Program-made: the position numbers and the translations under genes | In this document: piece after piece, positions 22,079 to 30,990 of the stretch | Layout: every line of letters starts with the position of its first letter | How positions within the stretch are numbered: position 1 is the stretch's first letter | The notes under the pieces: model-generated | What the model saw: the letters and a program-made list of their open reading frames with translations, nothing else | Database searches by the model: none | What the model was told of the DNA's origin: nothing | Assembly: GCA_947258885.1 (NCBI GenBank) | Contig: CAMYKD010000006.1 | Coordinates: 1-59,165 of the forward strand | Length of the DNA stretch: 59,165 nucleotides | Origin: an uncultured Kiloniellales bacterium | Lineage (GTDB): Bacteria; Pseudomonadota; Alphaproteobacteria; Kiloniellales; JAKSDN01 | Direction: 5' to 3'

Positions 22079-22082
<4 letters not shown>
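21210..22082 (-). CDS. trpA: tryptophan synthase alpha subunit
   Basis: A 290-residue TIM-barrel subunit that cleaves indole-3-glycerol phosphate to indole and GAP, passing indole to TrpB. The key segments are [24 protein letters not shown] (with the catalytic Glu) and [10 protein letters not shown] (with the second catalytic Asp). GITGTRS and [11 protein letters not shown] bind the phosphate. It starts at a GTG at 22082 overlapping the trpB stop (GTGA), so the subunits are translationally coupled. An apparent extension to 22250 is shadow within trpB. N-terminal residues before RIRERFQAL are slightly longer than in the E. coli protein. Confidence 0.96.
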
Positions 22083-23302
<1,220 letters not shown>

Positions 23303-23463: not shown

Positions 23464-24075
23464 GTGCCGCTGAGCGTCTATAGTCTCAAACCTCGTTTCC
23501 AAAAGCTCTTGAGGCCGGTCACCGCGGCGCTGGCCGGGGCCGGGGTCAGCGCCAATCAGGTAACCTTGGCCGCGCTCGCGCTGTCGATCGTTTGCGGGGG
23601 CGTGATCGCGCTCTGGCCGGAGCGAACTTGGTTGCTCCTATTGCTGCCCGCCGTGCTCTTGGTGCGCATGGGGCTCAATGCCGTCGACGGCATGTTGGCG
23701 CGCGAGCATGGGCAAGCCTCGGCGCTGGGCGCAATTCTGAACGAGCTGGGCGATCTGATATCCGATGCGGCGCTCTACCTGCCTCTGGCCCTGGTGCCGG
23801 GGCTGTCCGCACCGCTCGTGGTGCTTGCGGTGGTCTTGGCTCTTATCGCCGAGGCGGCTGGTATCCTCGCGCTCGCGATCGGCGCGGGACGCCGCTACGA
23901 CGGTCCGATGGGCAAGAGCGATCGGGCCGTGGTCTTCGGCGGATTGGGGTTTGTGCTTGCCCTGGGTGCTCCGCCGGGACCTTGGCTCGACTGGGTGCTT
24001 TGGCTGGTCTTGCTGTTGTTGGTGCTGACCGCCGTCAATCGGGTGCGCAGGGCGCTCGAGGAACGGGCGCCGTGA
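23464..24075 (+). CDS. ynbA: YnbA-like CDP-alcohol phosphatidyltransferase
   Basis: A 203-residue integral membrane protein with about five or six hydrophobic segments. It resembles E. coli YnbA from its first residues ([13 protein letters not shown]). The CDP-alcohol phosphotransferase motif is readable at residues 72-97 as NxxDGxxAR...GxxxNxxxD. Compared with the canonical D-D-D-D pattern, the first and third Asp are Asn (Asn72, Asn93), which I believe is a trait of the YnbA branch. It should join a CDP-activated lipid with an alcohol; neither product nor acceptor is known. It starts with a GTG (23464). Its stop overlaps the next gene's GTG by 4 bases, tying it to the CdsA-like enzyme that would supply CDP-diacylglycerol. 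Confidence 0.8.
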
Positions 24076-25010
24076 TCCTCATCACCCTGGCGCCCGCCGT
24101 TCTCTGGACCTTGGCTTCGATCTTCGGTGTTCTCGTGATCGCGAGTCTGGCCGTTGCCTGGCTTGCCCGCAGGAAACCGGGCGGTCATGGCGAACTCGTG
24201 CTCAGGGTCAAGTCGTGGTGGCTGATGGTGTCGCTTTTCAGCCTCGCCCTGGTGTTCAGCCGCGGCGCCGCGCTGGCGCTGTTCGGCTTGATAAGCTTTC
24301 TGGCGCTCAAGGAGTACCTTTCGCTGATCCCGACGCGCCGCGCCGACCGACGGGTGCTGTTCTGGGCCTACCTGGCGATCCCCGTGCAGTTCCTCTGGGT
24401 CTTCATGGAATGGTACGGGATGTTCATCATCTTCGTTCCGGTCTACATGTTTCTCGGGCTGGCCTTTCGCATGGTGGTCGGCGGCGTGACCCAGGGGTTC
24501 CTGCGCGCGGCGGGGATGCTGCACTGGGGCCTGATGGTCACGCTGTTCAGCCTGAGCCACGTGGCCTATCTGCTGGCCTTGCCGGCCGAGGGGAACCCGC
24601 CGGCGGGCGGTCCCGGACTGTTGCTTTTCCTGGTCGTAGCAACCGAGGCGAACGACGTCTTTCAGTACCTCTGGGGGCGCGGCCTGGGGCGGCACCGGGT
24701 CATGCCCTCGGTCAGCCCGAACAAGACCTGGGAAGGTTTGATCGGCGGCGTTTCGACCACGATCCTGCTGGCGGCGCTGCTGTCGGTTTGGCTTACCCCG
24801 TTCTCCTGGCCCCACGCGCTGGCGGCCGGCCTGATCATCGGCCTCGGCGGATTCTGCGGCGACGTGACGATCTCTGCGGTCAAGCGCGACCTGGGCGTCA
24901 AGGACAGCGGCAGCCTGCTGCCTGGCCATGGGGGCATTCTGGATCGTGTCGACAGCCTCGCCTTTACGGCACCGCTGTTCTTCCACTTCACCTATTACTT
25001 CTACTATTGA
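24072..25010 (+). CDS. ynbB: YnbB-like phosphatidate cytidylyltransferase (CdsA paralogue)
   Basis: A 312-residue polytopic membrane protein with about eight hydrophobic segments. It ends with the complete CDP-diacylglycerol synthase signature: SAVKRDLGVKDSG followed by LLPGHGGILDRVDS (about residues 275-300). The polar loop SPNKTWEGLIGG upstream is also a CdsA family motif. It is expected to turn phosphatidic acid plus CTP into CDP-diacylglycerol. It is unlikely to be the housekeeping cdsA, which in alphaproteobacteria sits in the frr-uppS-cdsA-dxr cluster. Here it is coupled by a GTGA overlap to the YnbA-like gene, as in E. coli ynbAB. Its own start is that GTG at 24072. Confidence 0.85.
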   Translation: MILITLAPAVLWTLASIFGVLVIASLAVAWLARRKPGGHGELVLRVKSWWLMVSLFSLALVFSRGAALALFGLISFLALKEYLSLIPTRRADRRVLFWAYLAIPVQFLWVFMEWYGMFIIFVPVYMFLGLAFRMVVGGVTQGFLRAAGMLHWGLMVTLFSLSHVAYLLALPAEGNPPAGGPGLLLFLVVATEANDVFQYLWGRGLGRHRVMPSVSPNKTWEGLIGGVSTTILLAALLSVWLTPFSWPHALAAGLIIGLGGFCGDVTISAVKRDLGVKDSGSLLPGHGGILDRVDSLAFTAPLFFHFTYYFYY

Positions 25011-25038
25011 GCTCTGCTCGCACCGTCGGAGCGGTCCC

Positions 25039-25680
25039 GTGAATAGAGTTCTTCGCTACTGCTTCTTTCTCGTCGTGGTCCGGCCACTCGTGCTGATCGT
25101 GCTCGGCATCAATATCCGCCACCGCGAACGTCTGCCCATGGCCGGACCGGCGATCATCGTGGCCAACCACAACAGCCACCTCGACACGCTTGCGCTGATG
25201 ACCCTGTTTCCCCAGCGGTTGCTCGAGAGTCTCAGGCCCGTGGCGGCGGCCGATTACTTCTTGAGCCGAAAAGGACTGGCATGGTTCGCGACGCAAATCA
25301 TCGGGATCATCCCACTCAGCCGCAAGCTGCACCACTCGGGGGGCGATCCGCTCAAGGGCTGCCACGAGGCGTTGGATCGGGGAGATATCTTGATCATCTT
25401 TCCCGAGGGTAGCCGGGGCGAGCCGGAACATCTGGCAGCCTTCAAGACCGGTATCGCGCACCTGGCCGAACGTCATCCTCAGACACCGGTGATCCCCGTC
25501 TTCCTACACGGCCTCGGCAAGGCCCTGCCCAAAGGGGAATCCCTTCTGGTGCCGTTTTTCTGCGATATCTTCGTCGGCGCCAAGCTCGCTTGGCCGGGCG
25601 CACGCCAGGAGTTCATGGCCGCACTCGACGGTGCCATCCGCTCCCTGGCCACGGAAGGAAAGCTGCCGGACTGGGAGTGA
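25039..25680 (+). CDS. 1-acyl-sn-glycerol-3-phosphate acyltransferase-like protein
   Basis: A 213-residue PlsC/LPLAT-family acyltransferase with one N-terminal hydrophobic segment (FFLVVVRPLVLIVLGI). Motif I NHNSHLD gives the catalytic His44 and Asp49 (Hx4D). Motif III is FPEGSRG near residue 120, and VIPVFLHGLG is motif IV. The reaction is expected to be acyl transfer to lysophosphatidate or a related lysolipid, feeding the CdsA-like enzyme next door. It starts at a GTG 28 bases after the CdsA-like stop; the longer ATG frame overlaps that gene and lacks homology. A PlsC paralogue also accompanies ynb-like genes in Pseudomonas, as I recall. It is convergent with the ynbC-like operon. Confidence 0.82.
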   Translation: MNRVLRYCFFLVVVRPLVLIVLGINIRHRERLPMAGPAIIVANHNSHLDTLALMTLFPQRLLESLRPVAAADYFLSRKGLAWFATQIIGIIPLSRKLHHSGGDPLKGCHEALDRGDILIIFPEGSRGEPEHLAAFKTGIAHLAERHPQTPVIPVFLHGLGKALPKGESLLVPFFCDIFVGAKLAWPGARQEFMAALDGAIRSLATEGKLPDWE

Positions 25681-25708
25681 GCCGGCGGCGACGGTGTTCT
25701 CCGGTGGC

Positions 25709-25964
25709 TCAGCGGGCGGCGCAGGGCTGCAATTCACCGAACGGCTCGTCGCTAACGCCCGGGAGGACGGCACGCAGTGCCGCCACGTGCGCATCCGTCA
25801 AGACAGCCTTGGGCCGCCTCCCAGTCGAAAAAGAAGCTGCCGACCGAAGCGCGTTGCGCCGTTGTCCAGTTGGCGAAGCCGTAGACCAGAAAAAAGAACG
25901 GACCGAGGAAGCAGAGCCACAAACAGGCTTCCTTTATCGGCCGAGTGGTAGCTGCTGCACCCAA
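25709..25964 (-). pseudogene. decayed YnbD-like PAP2/dual-specificity phosphatase remnant
   Basis: Directly after the ynbC-like stop, in the same direction, a short frame from the TTG at 25964 reads LCFLGPFFFLVYGFANWTTAQ and then SFFFDWEAAQ. That is a membrane segment of the kind that starts YnbD-type PAP2/phosphatase fusion proteins. The frame then leaves sense and stops at 25752. In a second frame, codons from about 25805 read AVLTDAHVAALRAVLPGV, continue with SDEPFGELQ, and stop at 25709, looking like a genuine protein C-terminus. The simplest reading is a large internal deletion, of most of a protein that is several hundred residues long in E. coli, plus a frameshift that joins both ends. 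The active-site parts are gone. Family assignment rests on the N-terminal piece and on position after ynbC. Confidence 0.55.
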
Positions 25965-25967
25965 GGT

Positions 25968-27701
25968 TCAGACCTTCCGCGCCAGCGACACTGTGAAGAT
26001 ACCGTCCTCGTCGATCGCCATGGCTATCTTCTCGAAGCCGGCCTCGGCTGCCAATGCATCCATTTCCGCCTGGGTCCGGCGTCGCATGATCCAGGGTTCG
26101 CCGCCGCGGTGGCTGGTCAGCACGCGCGCGATGAACTCGATCTGCGGGTGCCAGGGCTGGCCCGTGTAGACGAGGAATCCGCCGGGCACCATCGCCTCCG
26201 CCAGGCCGGCGAGCGAGGCGCGTACAGGCTCGTTGTCGGGGAACAATTCGTAGAGACCGGAGACGATCCCGATGTTGGGCTTGGGGGTGATTCGGGCTAG
26301 CGATTCTCGGTCGAAGGCGTCGGCCTGTTCGAACGCGACGCCCCCCAGGCCCATTTCCGCCGCCAGCACCGCTCCCGCGCGGACGTTGTCGTCGCTGAAA
26401 TCGCGCAACAGCGCCGTGATCGCTTGACCGTTGCGCCGGGCGAGGACGTCCAGCACGTAACGGCCCTGACCCGTCGCGATGTCGACGATATGCACCTTCT
26501 CGCCATTGCTGCGGATATTGTCGATCGCTTGCTCCAGCATCGCCTCGAGGTGGCGTTTGCGCTGACGGATGCCGCGCCAACCCGGGCTGTCCAGGTATTG
26601 CCGGTCGATCAACCGGCCGAGCGGCGTCAGACCTTTGGCTTCGTTGCGGTAGACGTAGTCCAGCGTGGCGCCCGAATCGAAGCCGGTCCGCCACCCGACC
26701 TGGACGCCCTCGCTCAATCGGCCGAACGTCCGCAGGAAGAAGCGCATCAGCGCAAAGCCGCTGCCGGCGATTGTCGTGGCCGGCCGATGCAGCCGATCGA
26801 ATTCTCTCTTGGTATAGCCGGTGCGGTCCGCATTGATGTGATCGAGTGCCTTCGGCGGGTTGGCGAAGACATCCTCGATGAAATCGCGGGCCTTGCCGAT
26901 CGGCAGGTGACTGTCAATCTCGTTGAAGGTGTCGTGCAGGAAGCCAGGAAAGACGTGCATCTCCTTCCTCGGACTCGACAGCCCCTCGAAGAAGAGACGC
27001 TGGGGCGGCTGCTCTACGACCCAGTCGCCGCCCGAGGTCAGGACCAGCACCGGAACCGTGATGGCTGCCGAATCTTGAATCAGCCGTGTGGCCGCATCGC
27101 GCAGTCCCAGGAGAATGTTCACCGCGATGTTCGGCGTGATCAACGGATCCTCGTTGTAGGACCGCGCCTTCGCCGGGTCACGCGTCAGCAGCTTGCCCTT
27201 TACATAGCTCTTGATGAAGGTCTTGCCCCTGATCTTCTGTAGCAGGCGTAGCCCCGGCACGGCGAAGGGTACATAGAGTCTGACGCGCAAGGCGGGGCTT
27301 CCCAGCACCAGCGCCCGGATGGGCGGCGCGTAGTCGTGCACCCAGGTACTGACCAGCACGCTGCCGACGCTGTGCGCCATGACGACGATGTTCTCGTTGG
27401 CGAATCCGTGTTCCGTGGCGACATGCCGGACGAAGCTATCGACGTCCTTGACGAGCGTCCCGAAGCTTTCGGCATAGCCGCGTTCACCCGGCGACCGGCC
27501 GTGGCCGCGGGCATCCCAGGCAAAGATCGAATAGTCCGGCAGATCGAGCTTGTCGATCACGTCCTGCCAGCGCCCCGAGTGCTCGTGGCCCCGATGGAAC
27601 AAGATAATCGCCCGATCGCCGGGTGCCTCCGTCGGCCAAGCCCGGTAGAACAGCTCCGTCCTGTCCCAGGTTGCAAAGGTCTTCTCGATCGATGGCCGCA
27701 T
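25968..27701 (-). CDS. ynbC: YnbC-like alpha/beta hydrolase-SAM methyltransferase fusion
   Basis: A 577-residue two-domain protein. Residues about 1-300 are an alpha/beta hydrolase of the monoglyceride-lipase type: LFHRGHEHSGRW is the oxyanion loop, DARGHGRSPGERG follows, MAHSVGS gives the nucleophile Ser111, and FPGFLHDTFNE has the catalytic His. Residues about 370-577 form a class I SAM-dependent methyltransferase with VDIATGQGRYVLDVL as the SAM-binding glycine motif. This rare fusion is characteristic of E. coli YnbC and relatives, which always seem to sit with CDP-lipid enzymes. The hydrolase may trim an acylated lipid and the second domain may methylate it, but no reaction is established. 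The ATG at 27701 is preceded by GAGGAAC; longer starts lack homology. Confidence 0.85.
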   Translation of the reverse strand: MRPSIEKTFATWDRTELFYRAWPTEAPGDRAIILFHRGHEHSGRWQDVIDKLDLPDYSIFAWDARGHGRSPGERGYAESFGTLVKDVDSFVRHVATEHGFANENIVVMAHSVGSVLVSTWVHDYAPPIRALVLGSPALRVRLYVPFAVPGLRLLQKIRGKTFIKSYVKGKLLTRDPAKARSYNEDPLITPNIAVNILLGLRDAATRLIQDSAAITVPVLVLTSGGDWVVEQPPQRLFFEGLSSPRKEMHVFPGFLHDTFNEIDSHLPIGKARDFIEDVFANPPKALDHINADRTGYTKREFDRLHRPATTIAGSGFALMRFFLRTFGRLSEGVQVGWRTGFDSGATLDYVYRNEAKGLTPLGRLIDRQYLDSPGWRGIRQRKRHLEAMLEQAIDNIRSNGEKVHIVDIATGQGRYVLDVLARRNGQAITALLRDFSDDNVRAGAVLAAEMGLGGVAFEQADAFDRESLARITPKPNIGIVSGLYELFPDNEPVRASLAGLAEAMVPGGFLVYTGQPWHPQIEFIARVLTSHRGGEPWIMRRRTQAEMDALAAEAGFEKIAMAIDEDGIFTVSLARKV

Positions 27702-27927: not shown

Positions 27928-29235
27928 TCAGTGCAGCCCGACGGCCCTGGGGGTTCTCTCGGCGGCCCGCCCGTGCTCTTCGGTCACGCCGACAGCCGTC
28001 AAGAGATCGCCGATTTCCTCTCGGGCATGCTCGTGGCTCTTGTTGTTCCAGGGCTCCGCCCCTTCGTCGGACAGGTCGAGCAGCGTGAAGCCGCTTTCGA
28101 AATAGGCCCGATAGGAAACACGTTCGCTGAACCCGGGTTCGAGACGGAAGCCCATGCGCTCGGAGAGTTGATTCAGAAGGGCCGAGATCTCTCGGTTGTT
28201 GCGCGCGTCGATGTGCGCCAGGCGGTTGCGCATGACGATCCAGTCGATCGCCTTGCCGCCGTCCGATCGCCGCTGCTTGTTCAGGTCCCAGACCATCTTG
28301 CAGTATTCGCTGGGCGCCAGTGCCCTGCGCTTGCTGCGGTCGATCTTGGCCAGCACGTCGATATCGAGGAAGCTATCGTTGAGCGGCGTGATCAGCGTGT
28401 CGGCATTGAAGTGGGCAATGCGGGACAGGTACGACTCGCTGCCCGGGGTATCGATGACCACGTAGTCGCAGCCGGCAAGCTGGGCGAAGGCCTCGCGGAC
28501 TCGCGCCCGGTCCTCGGATTCCGCCTGGCCGCGATCGCGCAGGGCGGAGCGCTCGACGCGGCGGTGCAGCGGCATCGGGAGGCCCCGGTTGCCCGCCGCG
28601 GCAGCGGCCGCGCGGTTCCTGAGGAAGGTCGACAGCGTTGCTTGCCGGCCGTCGAAGTCGAGGGTGCCGACCTTGCGGCCGAGTTTGAGCAACGCGACCG
28701 CCAGGTGCATTGCGGCGGTCGATTTCCCGGTCCCGCCCTTCTCGTTCCCCAGGGCGATGATGTGCGGCGCCTTGCCGCGCCCCTTGGTGACTGCGAGACG
28801 CTCGTCGCAGAGATCCGGAGAGGCGATGCCCAAGGCGGCGGATATCTCTGTGATCCGGGTCACTTCCCGTACCGAAAAACCGTCGCCGGCCTGGCCGATC
28901 GCCCGGGCGATCCGCATGATGAGGTCGGTGGCCTGGCGGTCGCCGGCGGCCTCCGATACGCAGCTCAGCGCTCGGCCCCTGCCGGCTTCCTCGTGATCGC
29001 GCAGCGCGGTGGCGAAGCCGTTGAACAGGTCGATCGCCACATGGACCTCGAAGACCTTGAGCGCGTCCAGCGAGGCCAGGACCTTGTCGAGGGTCGCTCG
29101 CTTGGCGAAGGAGACCTCGCCGTCGGATGCCGCGACCAGCGCCGCTGCGGCCATGGCGGCCTCCAGGACCACACGGCTATGCATACGCGCGGACAGGGCG
29201 TGGATGTTTTCGCTCAGCCTGCCGAACAGGTTCAC
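27928..29235 (-). CDS. MipZ-like ParA-family ATPase with N-terminal TerB domain
   Basis: A 435-residue fusion. Residues about 20-145 are helical and TerB-like (AALVAASDGEVSF, then ALRDHEEAGRGRAL and ITEISAALGI). From residue 158 a complete MipZ-type ATPase follows. It has the deviant Walker A GNEKGGTGKST with signature Lys166, LDFDGRQATLSTFLRNR as switch I, VVIDTPGSESYLSRIAH as Walker B region, and LITPLNDSFLDIDVL, DWIVMRNRLAHIDARN and SGFTLLDLS, all typical of MipZ. MipZ forms gradients from the poles by binding ParB and inhibits FtsZ assembly. The TerB domain is not part of Caulobacter MipZ. The start is taken at the GTG at 29235 (NLFGRLSEN, the common start of TerB-family proteins); a longer frame to 29325 is possible. 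Confidence 0.82.
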   Translation of the reverse strand: MNLFGRLSENIHALSARMHSRVVLEAAMAAAALVAASDGEVSFAKRATLDKVLASLDALKVFEVHVAIDLFNGFATALRDHEEAGRGRALSCVSEAAGDRQATDLIMRIARAIGQAGDGFSVREVTRITEISAALGIASPDLCDERLAVTKGRGKAPHIIALGNEKGGTGKSTAAMHLAVALLKLGRKVGTLDFDGRQATLSTFLRNRAAAAAAGNRGLPMPLHRRVERSALRDRGQAESEDRARVREAFAQLAGCDYVVIDTPGSESYLSRIAHFNADTLITPLNDSFLDIDVLAKIDRSKRRALAPSEYCKMVWDLNKQRRSDGGKAIDWIVMRNRLAHIDARNNREISALLNQLSERMGFRLEPGFSERVSYRAYFESGFTLLDLSDEGAEPWNNKSHEHAREEIGDLLTAVGVTEEHGRAAERTPRAVGLH

Positions 29236-29426: not shown

Positions 29427-30074
29427 CTAGAGTGCGCGCGCGGTTTCGAGAAACGCCGCGATCTTAGCGGGGTCCTTGATGCCGGGCCGGTCTTCTACAC
29501 CGGAGGATACGTCGACCGCGCGTGCCCCCGAAATCTCGACTGCCTCGGCCAGGTTGTCCGGGTCCAGTCCGCCGGACAACATCCAGGGACGGCGCCAGGA
29601 CCGCCCGGCCAGCAGCCGCCAGTCGAAGGTCACCGCATTGCCGCCCGGCAACGCGCCGGTCATGTGCTTGGGCGGCTTGGCATCGAACAGCAGTCGATCG
29701 GCGACTTCGAGGTAGCGGCTTGCCGCCTCCAGGTCCTCGGGTTCGGCGACTTTGATGGCCTTCATGACCGGGTGGCCGAATTGCCCGCTGATCGCGGCCA
29801 CCCGGCCCGGCGCCTCGGACCCATGGAGCTGGATAAGCTCGATCGGCACCTGCTTCAGGACCGTGCTCAGGGTCGCGTCGTCCGGGTCGACGAACAGCCC
29901 GACCTTTACGATGCCCGGCGGCACGCGGGCCGCCAGCGCGGCGGCCTCGGCCGGGCCCAGGTAGCGCGGCGAGGGCGGATAGAACACCAGACCGACCAGC
30001 CCGGCACCGCCGCCGATCGCGGCGGCCATGGCCTCGGCCGTGTTGATGCCGCAGATCTTCACCTCGATCGCCAT
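29427..30074 (-). CDS. trpF: phosphoribosylanthranilate isomerase
   Basis: A 215-residue TIM-barrel enzyme that converts N-(5'-phosphoribosyl)anthranilate to CdRP. The start MAIEVKICGI contains the catalytic Cys, and VGLFVDPDD carries the catalytic Asp. IQLHGSE is family-typical, and WMLSGGLDPDNL and DVSSGVEDRPGIKD are phosphate-binding motifs. The ATG at 30074 is used; a longer frame to 30191 is shadow. It ends 192 bases before the TerB-MipZ gene start rather than before trpB, which is unusual for this class and marks the left border of the intervening block. Confidence 0.95.
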   Translation of the reverse strand: MAIEVKICGINTAEAMAAAIGGGAGLVGLVFYPPSPRYLGPAEAAALAARVPPGIVKVGLFVDPDDATLSTVLKQVPIELIQLHGSEAPGRVAAISGQFGHPVMKAIKVAEPEDLEAASRYLEVADRLLFDAKPPKHMTGALPGGNAVTFDWRLLAGRSWRRPWMLSGGLDPDNLAEAVEISGARAVDVSSGVEDRPGIKDPAKIAAFLETARAL

Positions 30075-30132
30075 GGCTTGTCCTGTTCGCACCATTCCTC
30101 GACATGGAAGGACCACGGATGGTCCGGCAGCG

Positions 30133-30990
30133 TCAAGTGCCGGCGTCGTCATTCGGGGGGACTCCGGCAAGGGGGCCGCCAGGCGGGCCAAGAGCGTCAG
30201 GAATCCATCCGGTACAGGTGCGGAACGCGACCGAGATCAGGCTGAGGCTGAGGGCTATGAGGATATAGTTGAGTGCAATATTAAGCGTCTCCACGGCCGT
30301 CATCAGGAAAGCCGTGTCCTCGGACTCGTGCAGGGCCCCAGTGAACGGGGTGAGCAGGACCTGCAAGACGATCATCATGCCGAGATATGCCAGAATCATG
30401 GTCGTGAACATGGCCCCGAACAGTCGCAGGCCCTGGCCTTTGCTGTGACGCCAAGCCAAGGCGAGCCCATAGATCTCATCCACGGCGACCGCCGGGAACA
30501 CGAAGCTGATACGCAAGAAGAGATACATCACCAGCACCAGGCTGATGAGCGCGACGAGGACGGCGCGCATGTCGAGGCTCGCCGTCGCCGGCCCCTCGGG
30601 TGTCAGAAAGGCAGAGGCGACGACGGGCTGGTAAAGAAAGCTCGCGCCGTAGCTGACCGCCGTGATGATCAACAGATAGCCGAGGAAGCGCCAATGCCGC
30701 CTCTCCCAAACCGGAATCACCGGCGGTGGTGCGTCCAGCAGCACGGCGCGATGCCAGGCCACCGCGAAAATCGTGTAAGGCCCGAGCGTGAGCAACCCCA
30801 GAATCTGGATCAGGACAGGGCTTTCCCCGGCGGCCCGGCTCAGGACCAGGATGACCAGGGAGAGCAGGAACGGCACCAGGGCGGCCCGCATCAGGTGGCC
30901 GAACCGGCCGAACACGCTGCGATAGGCCGCGGAGACCGACGCGCCGACCGGCAGGTCGCTGAGGGGAGCCGGAGGCGGTCCCATAGACAT
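30133..30990 (-). CDS. polytopic membrane protein of unknown function
   Basis: A 285-residue membrane protein I cannot assign. Hydrophobic segments occur near residues 33-50, 60-78, 104-122, 145-165, 195-220 and 240-262, giving about six helices with short loops. A soluble N-terminus MSMGPPPAPLSDLPVG and a Pro/Gly-rich C-terminal tail flank them. SVFGRFGHLMRAALVPFLL at the start resembles the beginning of other uncharacterised 'glycerophosphoryl diester phosphodiesterase membrane domain'-like proteins, but that is only an impression. The start at the ATG at 30990 follows eight bases after the pyrF stop, so it is almost surely co-transcribed with pyrF and trpF (58-base gap). Confidence 0.75.
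   Translation of the reverse strand: MSMGPPPAPLSDLPVGASVSAAYRSVFGRFGHLMRAALVPFLLSLVILVLSRAAGESPVLIQILGLLTLGPYTIFAVAWHRAVLLDAPPPVIPVWERRHWRFLGYLLIITAVSYGASFLYQPVVASAFLTPEGPATASLDMRAVLVALISLVLVMYLFLRISFVFPAVAVDEIYGLALAWRHSKGQGLRLFGAMFTTMILAYLGMMIVLQVLLTPFTGALHESEDTAFLMTAVETLNIALNYILIALSLSLISVAFRTCTGWIPDALGPPGGPLAGVPPNDDAGT

Follow-up and report, generated by a model that had tools for sequence, protein, structure and literature searches.

A YnbABCD/Arc1-like gene cassette with an altered YnbA metal motif between trpB and trpF of an uncultured Kiloniellales bacterium

What is a block of phospholipid-related genes doing between trpB and trpF, and what does it contribute to its carrier? The window that raises this question is a 59,165-nucleotide stretch, the whole of contig C6 (CAMYKD010000006.1), from the 4.9-Mb draft genome (236 contigs, ~97% complete) of an uncultured Kiloniellales bacterium, the closest named relatives of which are metagenome bins labelled Kiloniellales and Rhodospirillales. 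We consider the block to be, probably, a cassette of the YnbABCD/Arc1 family, that is, a specialised, horizontally moving set of genes for phospholipid synthesis and editing that would protect the membrane against phospholipase attack. This kind of cassette is known; the metal motif of its YnbA protein and its make-up of two modules are new. The comparison links Escherichia coli ynbABCD, an orphan set, with arc1 of Pseudomonas, a toxin-resistance cluster without an assigned mechanism.

Gene content and kinship to YnbABCD and Arc1

The order of genes is trpB (-), ynbA (+), ynbB (+), plsC (+), a remnant of ynbD (-), ynbC (-), a TerB-MipZ gene (-) and trpF (-), with the groups ynbA-ynbB-plsC (A-B-P) and ynbD-ynbC (D-C) convergent within the block. 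All four genes named by the first-pass annotation are open reading frames with Pfam support. The arc1A-like ynbA (23464-24075, + strand) encodes a protein with a predicted CDP-alcohol phosphotransferase fold of the phosphatidylinositol-phosphate (PIP) synthase type (PF01066, CDP-OH_P_transf, 31.5 bits), and overlaps, through GTGA, ynbB (24072-25010, +), a CdsA paralogue and predicted CTP transferase (PF01148, CTP_transf_1, 222 bits). These are followed by the gene for a PlsC-type acyltransferase (25039-25680, +; PF01553, Acyltransferase, 82 bits) and, on the other strand, by ynbC (25968-27701, -), in which, as the annotation had recognised, a hydrolase, here of the monoacylglycerol-lipase type (PF12146, Hydrolase_4, 222 bits), is fused to a methyltransferase (PF12147, Methyltransf_20, 446 bits) in the manner typical of YnbC. 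Two genes had been missed, namely, ynbD, fragments of which remain at ~25709-25964, and the TerB-MipZ ATPase gene between ynbC and trpF.

The identity to the E. coli K-12 proteins is 49% over 199 amino acids for YnbA, 47% over 301 for YnbB and 52% over 574 for YnbC. The possibility that housekeeping genes had been mistaken for Ynb was rejected: contig C66 of the genome encodes another CdsA, and beyond the cassette there are six more CDP-alcohol transferases and five more acyltransferases. With the cassette counted, the Pfam matches number two for CTP_transf_1, seven for CDP-OH_P_transf and six for Acyltransferase. YnbB aligns with the other CdsA at 41% identity over only 128 amino acids and scores 91.8 bits against PRK11624, the NCBIfam phosphatidate cytidylyltransferase model, far below the cut-off of 385. 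Judging from the concordance of Pfam, NCBIfam and direct comparison, the cassette proteins differ from the housekeeping enzymes, as the first-pass annotation had proposed.

The PlsC translation contains NHNSHLD and FPEGSRG, which we take to be acyltransferase motifs. The AlphaFold2 (AF2) model of YnbC has a predicted local distance difference test score (pLDDT) of 94.5, and its structure matches are filled by the hydrolase half, which resembles monoglyceride lipases (Z 35) and matches monoacylglycerol lipases in phmmer (E 7e-23). Ser111 and Asp226 of this half are invariant in 44 of 44 alignment rows, and His256 is conserved in 43 of the 44; these three residues probably form the catalytic triad.

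In Pseudomonas aeruginosa, PA2541-36 constitute arc1A-F, antagonism resistance cluster 1, in which five of the six genes are phospholipid-related; arc1 expression is reported to be induced through Gac/Rsm, and deletion of arc1 to lower fitness under attack by the type VI secretion system (T6SS) (PMC8926400). A 2025 paper describes a contribution of arc1A to resistance against lipases of Vibrio cholerae and Acinetobacter baylyi: loss of arc1A from T6SS-deficient cells raises their sensitivity to V. cholerae, an effect that is smaller when TseL is inactive, and also to A. baylyi with the lipase Tle1 alone (PMC12663445). The cloning primer for PA2541 (arc1A) encodes MISVYQL, with which the YnbA proteins of P. 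nitroreducens (L070) and Pseudomonas sp. 21 (L096) also begin, and PA2536 is annotated as a probable phosphatidate cytidylyltransferase. Because arc1A starts like Pseudomonas YnbA and contributes to resistance against T6SS lipases, the set is functionally not an orphan. Thus, the earlier statement that no lipid product is defined for the Pseudomonas set stands, but a reading of this set as lacking a defined role does not, given the published defence phenotype of arc1A-F (PMC8926400, PMC12663445). No publication treating both ynbABCD and arc1 was found, judging by titles and abstract starts, and "ynb" has 0 occurrences in the main text of PMC8926400.

With six genes, five of them lipid-related, arc1A-F agrees in content with Pseudomonas loci ordered A-C-D-X-P-B, where X is a small membrane gene. 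The gene order is unlike that of the window, in which gene X was not found either (tblastn, E 0.001). The E. coli K-12 set (b1408-b1411) has the same YnbA, YnbB and YnbC, with ynbD and with the N-D-N-D motif described below, but is arranged as A-B-C-D on one strand without plsC, whereas in the window A-B-P faces D-C and ynbD is broken.

The N-D-N-D metal motif of YnbA

Class I CDP-alcohol phosphotransferases share the motif spacing D-x2-D-G-x2-A-R-x8-G-x3-D-x3-D. The window YnbA departs from this four-Asp motif in that its sequence, N-x2-D-G-x2-A-R-x8-G-x3-N-x3-D, has Asn at the first (D1, N72) and third (D3, N93) positions. We searched 85 YnbA matches with a pattern that fixes D2 and two glycines and leaves D1 and D3 free, and all 82 copies that matched, from several phyla and including two pairs of duplicate records of the same DNA, have Asn at both positions. 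The three matches that miss the pattern are two fragments of a frameshifted copy in L065, one with N at D1 and the other with N at D3, and a low-scoring second match in L095. Throughout a 67-row alignment that reaches down to 24% identity, N72, D75, N93, D97 and D101 are invariant; because the copies were collected for their likeness to YnbA, though irrespective of their D1/D3 residues, some bias remains. Among the six other CDP-alcohol transferases of the source genome, five carry the complete set of four Asp residues, and the remaining one (L112, G000:C22) keeps the first three but has Gly in place of the fourth. The fixed N-D-N-D motif is a new observation of the present analysis and a testable oddity that sets YnbA apart from the phosphatidylglycerol synthases to which it has been likened.

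The AF2 model of YnbA (pLDDT 94.8) contains the CDP-alcohol phosphotransferase fold, with the best match to 5d91 (Z 20.6, 191 aligned residues, root-mean-square deviation 2.6); the protein is thus predicted to have the class I fold, an assignment that extends to the fold and not to the activity of canonical members. In both sequence and fold, the closest solved relatives are PIP synthases, Mycobacterium tuberculosis PgsA1 and R. salmoninarum PIPS (profile match to 6h53, E 3.6e-18; fold matches, Z 18.7-20.6), and the profile alignment places N72 and N93 at the metal ligands D68 and D89 of PgsA1. The structural report describes the four-Asp metal site of these phosphotransferases, where, in PgsA1, Mg-1 is bound by D68, D71 and D89, Mg-2 is bound also by D89, and D93 presumably acts as the base (PMC6506517). 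PgsA1 and the window YnbA differ as well at the position that follows the fourth Asp, which is R94 in PgsA1 and Leu in YnbA. Because Asn occupies both D1 and D3, canonical two-metal catalysis by YnbA appears doubtful.

These features bear on a rival explanation, in which the cassette provides extra phosphatidylglycerol synthesis, with PlsC, the CdsA-like YnbB, a PgsA-like YnbA and YnbD as phosphatidylglycerophosphate phosphatase merely replacing lipid lost to attack. Four arc1 genes resemble the enzymes needed for phosphatidylglycerol synthesis, according to PMC8926400, but the YnbA model is closer to the PIP synthases than to PgsA (7drj/7drk, Z ~11), the NCBIfam matches of YnbA, both below the cut-off, are of inositol-phosphate types, and Asn is present at both D1 and D3. 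Furthermore, the cassette includes a methyltransferase, which a plain phosphatidylglycerol route does not require. We therefore regard this explanation as unlikely.

Composition of the cassette and its proposed role

A scan of named genomes for YnbC yielded at least 588 matching stretches and at least 513 confirmed relatives, from which the best 80 loci were kept, two of them from the same genus and several on short contigs. Within 8 kb of YnbC in these best 80 loci, with the set defined from five known query families, YnbA was detected in 76, YnbB in 73, YnbD in 72 and PlsC in 61, and all five were present in 55. Record titles assign the loci to Pseudomonadota, Verrucomicrobiota, Planctomycetota, Acidobacteriota, Bacteroidota and Myxococcota, and the loci show 19 gene-order strings, some of these cut by contig ends. 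YnbA above the threshold was not found in four of the 80 (L026, L065, L067 and L078). When the YnbA profile was run on 15 genomes, all 12 genomes with PF12147 above 200 bits had YnbA; among the three relatives without YnbC, two (G004 and G006) were without YnbA and one (G005) had a weak, 45-bit match. In three of these 12 genomes (G022, G029 and G046), A-B-P and C-D lie at separate places and both are retained, which suggests that the genes stay together for function and not by linkage alone. The cassette consists of two modules, A-B-P and C-D.

Several observations on individual members can be added. In G292 (L140, G292:C13, 5906-6937), a YnbC-type methyltransferase that lacks the hydrolase half lies beside ynbA, ynbB and plsC, with alpha/beta-hydrolase-like frames of a different kind nearby on the opposite strand. 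In Pseudomonas, Gilliamella and some betaproteobacterial loci, ynbD is separated from plsC or ynbB by the gene for protein X, a small membrane-type protein without a Pfam match (L057, 13103-13558; L051, 13081-13560) that is, going by gene order, perhaps PA2538; tblastn at the above threshold found the gene in 30 of the 85 sequences searched and not in the same-genus loci L012 and L013. An anti-phage system was rejected as an identity for the block, with 0 PADLOC families for the five proteins (5027 models, E 0.001). The literature search on Methyltransf_20, PF12147 and YnbC gave no relevant title among those listed.

The ynbD remnant of the window (25709-25964, -; located by tblastn with intact copies) consists of an N-terminal part (25818-25964) that meets, at a junction, a C-terminal part in a different frame (25709-25817). 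Both same-genus genomes (G001 and G002) have an intact ynbD between ynbC and plsC (L012 and L013), and relative to either of them 1,112 bp, not a multiple of three, are missing from the window, with the frame lost. In G001, YnbD combines a dual-specificity phosphatase half with a PAP2 half, the latter below the Pfam cut-off. Because ynbD is deleted, the route is incomplete in the window, contrary to the complete route envisaged by the first-pass annotation. YnbD is usual but not universal among cassettes; since 72 of the 80 loci have it, we do not treat an intact YnbD as an obligatory member.

The lost frame favours an explanation in which the block, in the source genome, is a decaying insertion without function. 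Against decay, ynbA, ynbB, plsC and ynbC are open in all three genus genomes, their active sites are conserved, and their ratios of nonsynonymous to synonymous substitution rates between the window and G001 or G002 (0.11-0.33) are near those of trpF in the same pairs (0.11-0.15). The four genes are under purifying selection, a value that gives no date relative to the ynbD deletion. In addition, loci with no ynbD match exist elsewhere (L017, L018, L059 and L094), and the deletion could be an assembly error. Decay is, then, an improbable account of the block.

The first-pass annotation also held that YnbB shares the activity of CdsA. In the relevant study, YnbB is modelled as a maker of CDP-diacylglycerol (CDP-DAG), but it does not complement a cdsA deletion and is no substitute for CdsA in bulk phospholipid synthesis; its overproduction raises the level of MPIase in E. 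coli (PMC6362211). The last two observations would fit service to a glycolipid such as MPIase, for which YnbB would supply the CDP-DAG that goes into N-acetylglucosamine-diphosphate-diacylglycerol (GlcNAc-PP-DAG). However, ynbB knockout does not significantly alter the MPIase level, according to the same study (PMC6362211), and the enterobacterial common antigen form ECA-PG does not require ynbB, so that we give this explanation little credence, less than either of the preceding two.

For the preferred reading, a specialised protective phospholipid set, a route can be proposed. PlsC would acylate a lyso-lipid, YnbB would activate the resulting phosphatidate with CTP, and YnbA would transfer the phosphatidyl group to a polar acceptor. 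This acceptor is probably phosphorylated, to judge from the likeness to PIP synthases and from the phosphatase that most cassettes include. YnbD would then remove the extra phosphate and YnbC would methylate the product through its methyltransferase half, while its monoacylglycerol-lipase half would clear mono-acyl lipids arising from attack or editing. With YnbD broken in the source genome, another phosphatase must substitute, or the route halts before dephosphorylation. By analogy with arc1A of P. aeruginosa, the one member of the family for which protection against phospholipase effectors is reported, the cassette may protect the source organism from phospholipases.

The same organism encodes other genes of the kind reported for lipase resistance: on contig C33 (L123, G000:C33, 2608-8862), an LplT-Aas fusion (1722 bits, cut-off 1349) is followed after 21 bp by a 932-amino-acid DUF2339/Arc3A-type protein (396 bits, cut-off 33.6). 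The proposed threat is the same for this lysophospholipid defence pair as for the cassette, but the proteins differ, the sole common domain being the acyltransferase in Aas.

Several points weigh against a protective role. No lipid product of the cassette has been seen, the ynbD deletion may be a sign of decay in the source genome, and the double Asn could mean that YnbA is a transferase no longer. The two studies describe arc1 as a general defence with no tie to a single effector (PMC8926400) and the role of arc1A against V. cholerae as auxiliary (PMC12663445); the likeness of arc1 to Ynb was assessed from the PA2541 start and gene content. No plsC adjoins E. coli ynb, and no lipase phenotype for ynb was found in the literature. 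Co-occurrence of YnbC with Arc3A is suggestive only: DUF2339 is present in 6 of the 8 relatives with YnbC and 19 of the 50 without it (one-sided Fisher p 0.058, kinship ignored), and G050 and G057 have YnbC without DUF2339.

A further step can be put forward tentatively, with rather less confidence than the protective role itself. The two-metal site of YnbA/Arc1A might have been rebuilt by the fixed Asp-to-Asn changes at D1 and D3 for a different chemistry, such as catalysis with one metal, the use of another acceptor or the hydrolysis of CDP-activated lipid, whereby the cassette would make an undescribed methylated, lipase-resistant phospholipid, and E. coli ynbABCD would be the same defence route.

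Insertion between trpB and trpF and the neighbouring genes

The trp junction was surveyed in 58 genomes, among them that of the window. In 51 of these, trpF and trpB are collinear and share a contig; G017, where the two are 164 kb apart, was left out of this set. In agreement with the first-pass annotation, the genes are adjacent in most relatives: 39 of the 51 have a gap of no more than 450 bp and nine have one of 921-1095 bp, compared with 5,975, 7,087 and 7,091 bp in the window's genus. All three genomes of the genus that were examined (the window, G001 and G002, with a contig end falling within trpB in the latter two) have the block between the trp genes. Because the genus mates carry it and the three other family members having both trp genes do not (gaps of 60-182 bp), the block is best read as an insertion, as the annotation had suggested, and as one that belongs to a single genus.

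The YnbC methyltransferase domain PF12147 is present in the three genus genomes, in none of the four other family members (two of them ~70% complete) and in five others among the 58. The view that the cassette is typical of the order or class was rejected: at E 0.001, PF12147 matches 8 of the 58 relatives and 9 of the 385 genomes from the class, and only five of the 385, the window's own counted, exceed 200 bits. In a YnbC tree built from 64 of 87 rows (23 removed by hand for thinning) by a quick method with SH-aLRT support only, the window's genus groups with Hwanghaeella, Cohaesibacteraceae, L024 and G022/G029/G046 in a starred clade of nine. G050 and G057, from the same order as the window, fall in another starred clade. 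Inheritance from the ancestor of the order is disfavoured by this placement of same-order genomes in different starred clades, and the cassette would have moved horizontally.

The TerB-MipZ gene (27928-29184, -; start inferred) lies inside the insertion and outside the lipid set, at the same position in G001 and G002; none of its matches outside the genus among the 58 genomes adjoins trpF. The product is a MipZ ATPase (PF09140, 293 bits) with an N-terminal TerB-like domain (PF05099, 25.1 bits, cut-off 24.4). Similar fusions occur elsewhere in the order, the other MipZ matches of the source genome are on contigs C105 and C84, and in the G001 copy (L012, G001:C33, 4695-5938) a frameshift near residue 353 splits the gene.

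On the left flank, trpB (22079-23302, -; TIGR00263, 569 bits) has a start inferred from alignment with relatives; matches outside the genus begin at residue 20 or later of the open reading frame, many at 44-53. On the right flank, trpF (29427-30191, -; NF002295, 290 bits, cut-off 216) is given as the longest frame, with the match starting at residue 40 and the true start further in. Nine relatives (G009, G019, G022, G025, G029, G032, G035, G046 and G051) have 0.9-1.1 kb between trpF and trpB, the space of one gene.

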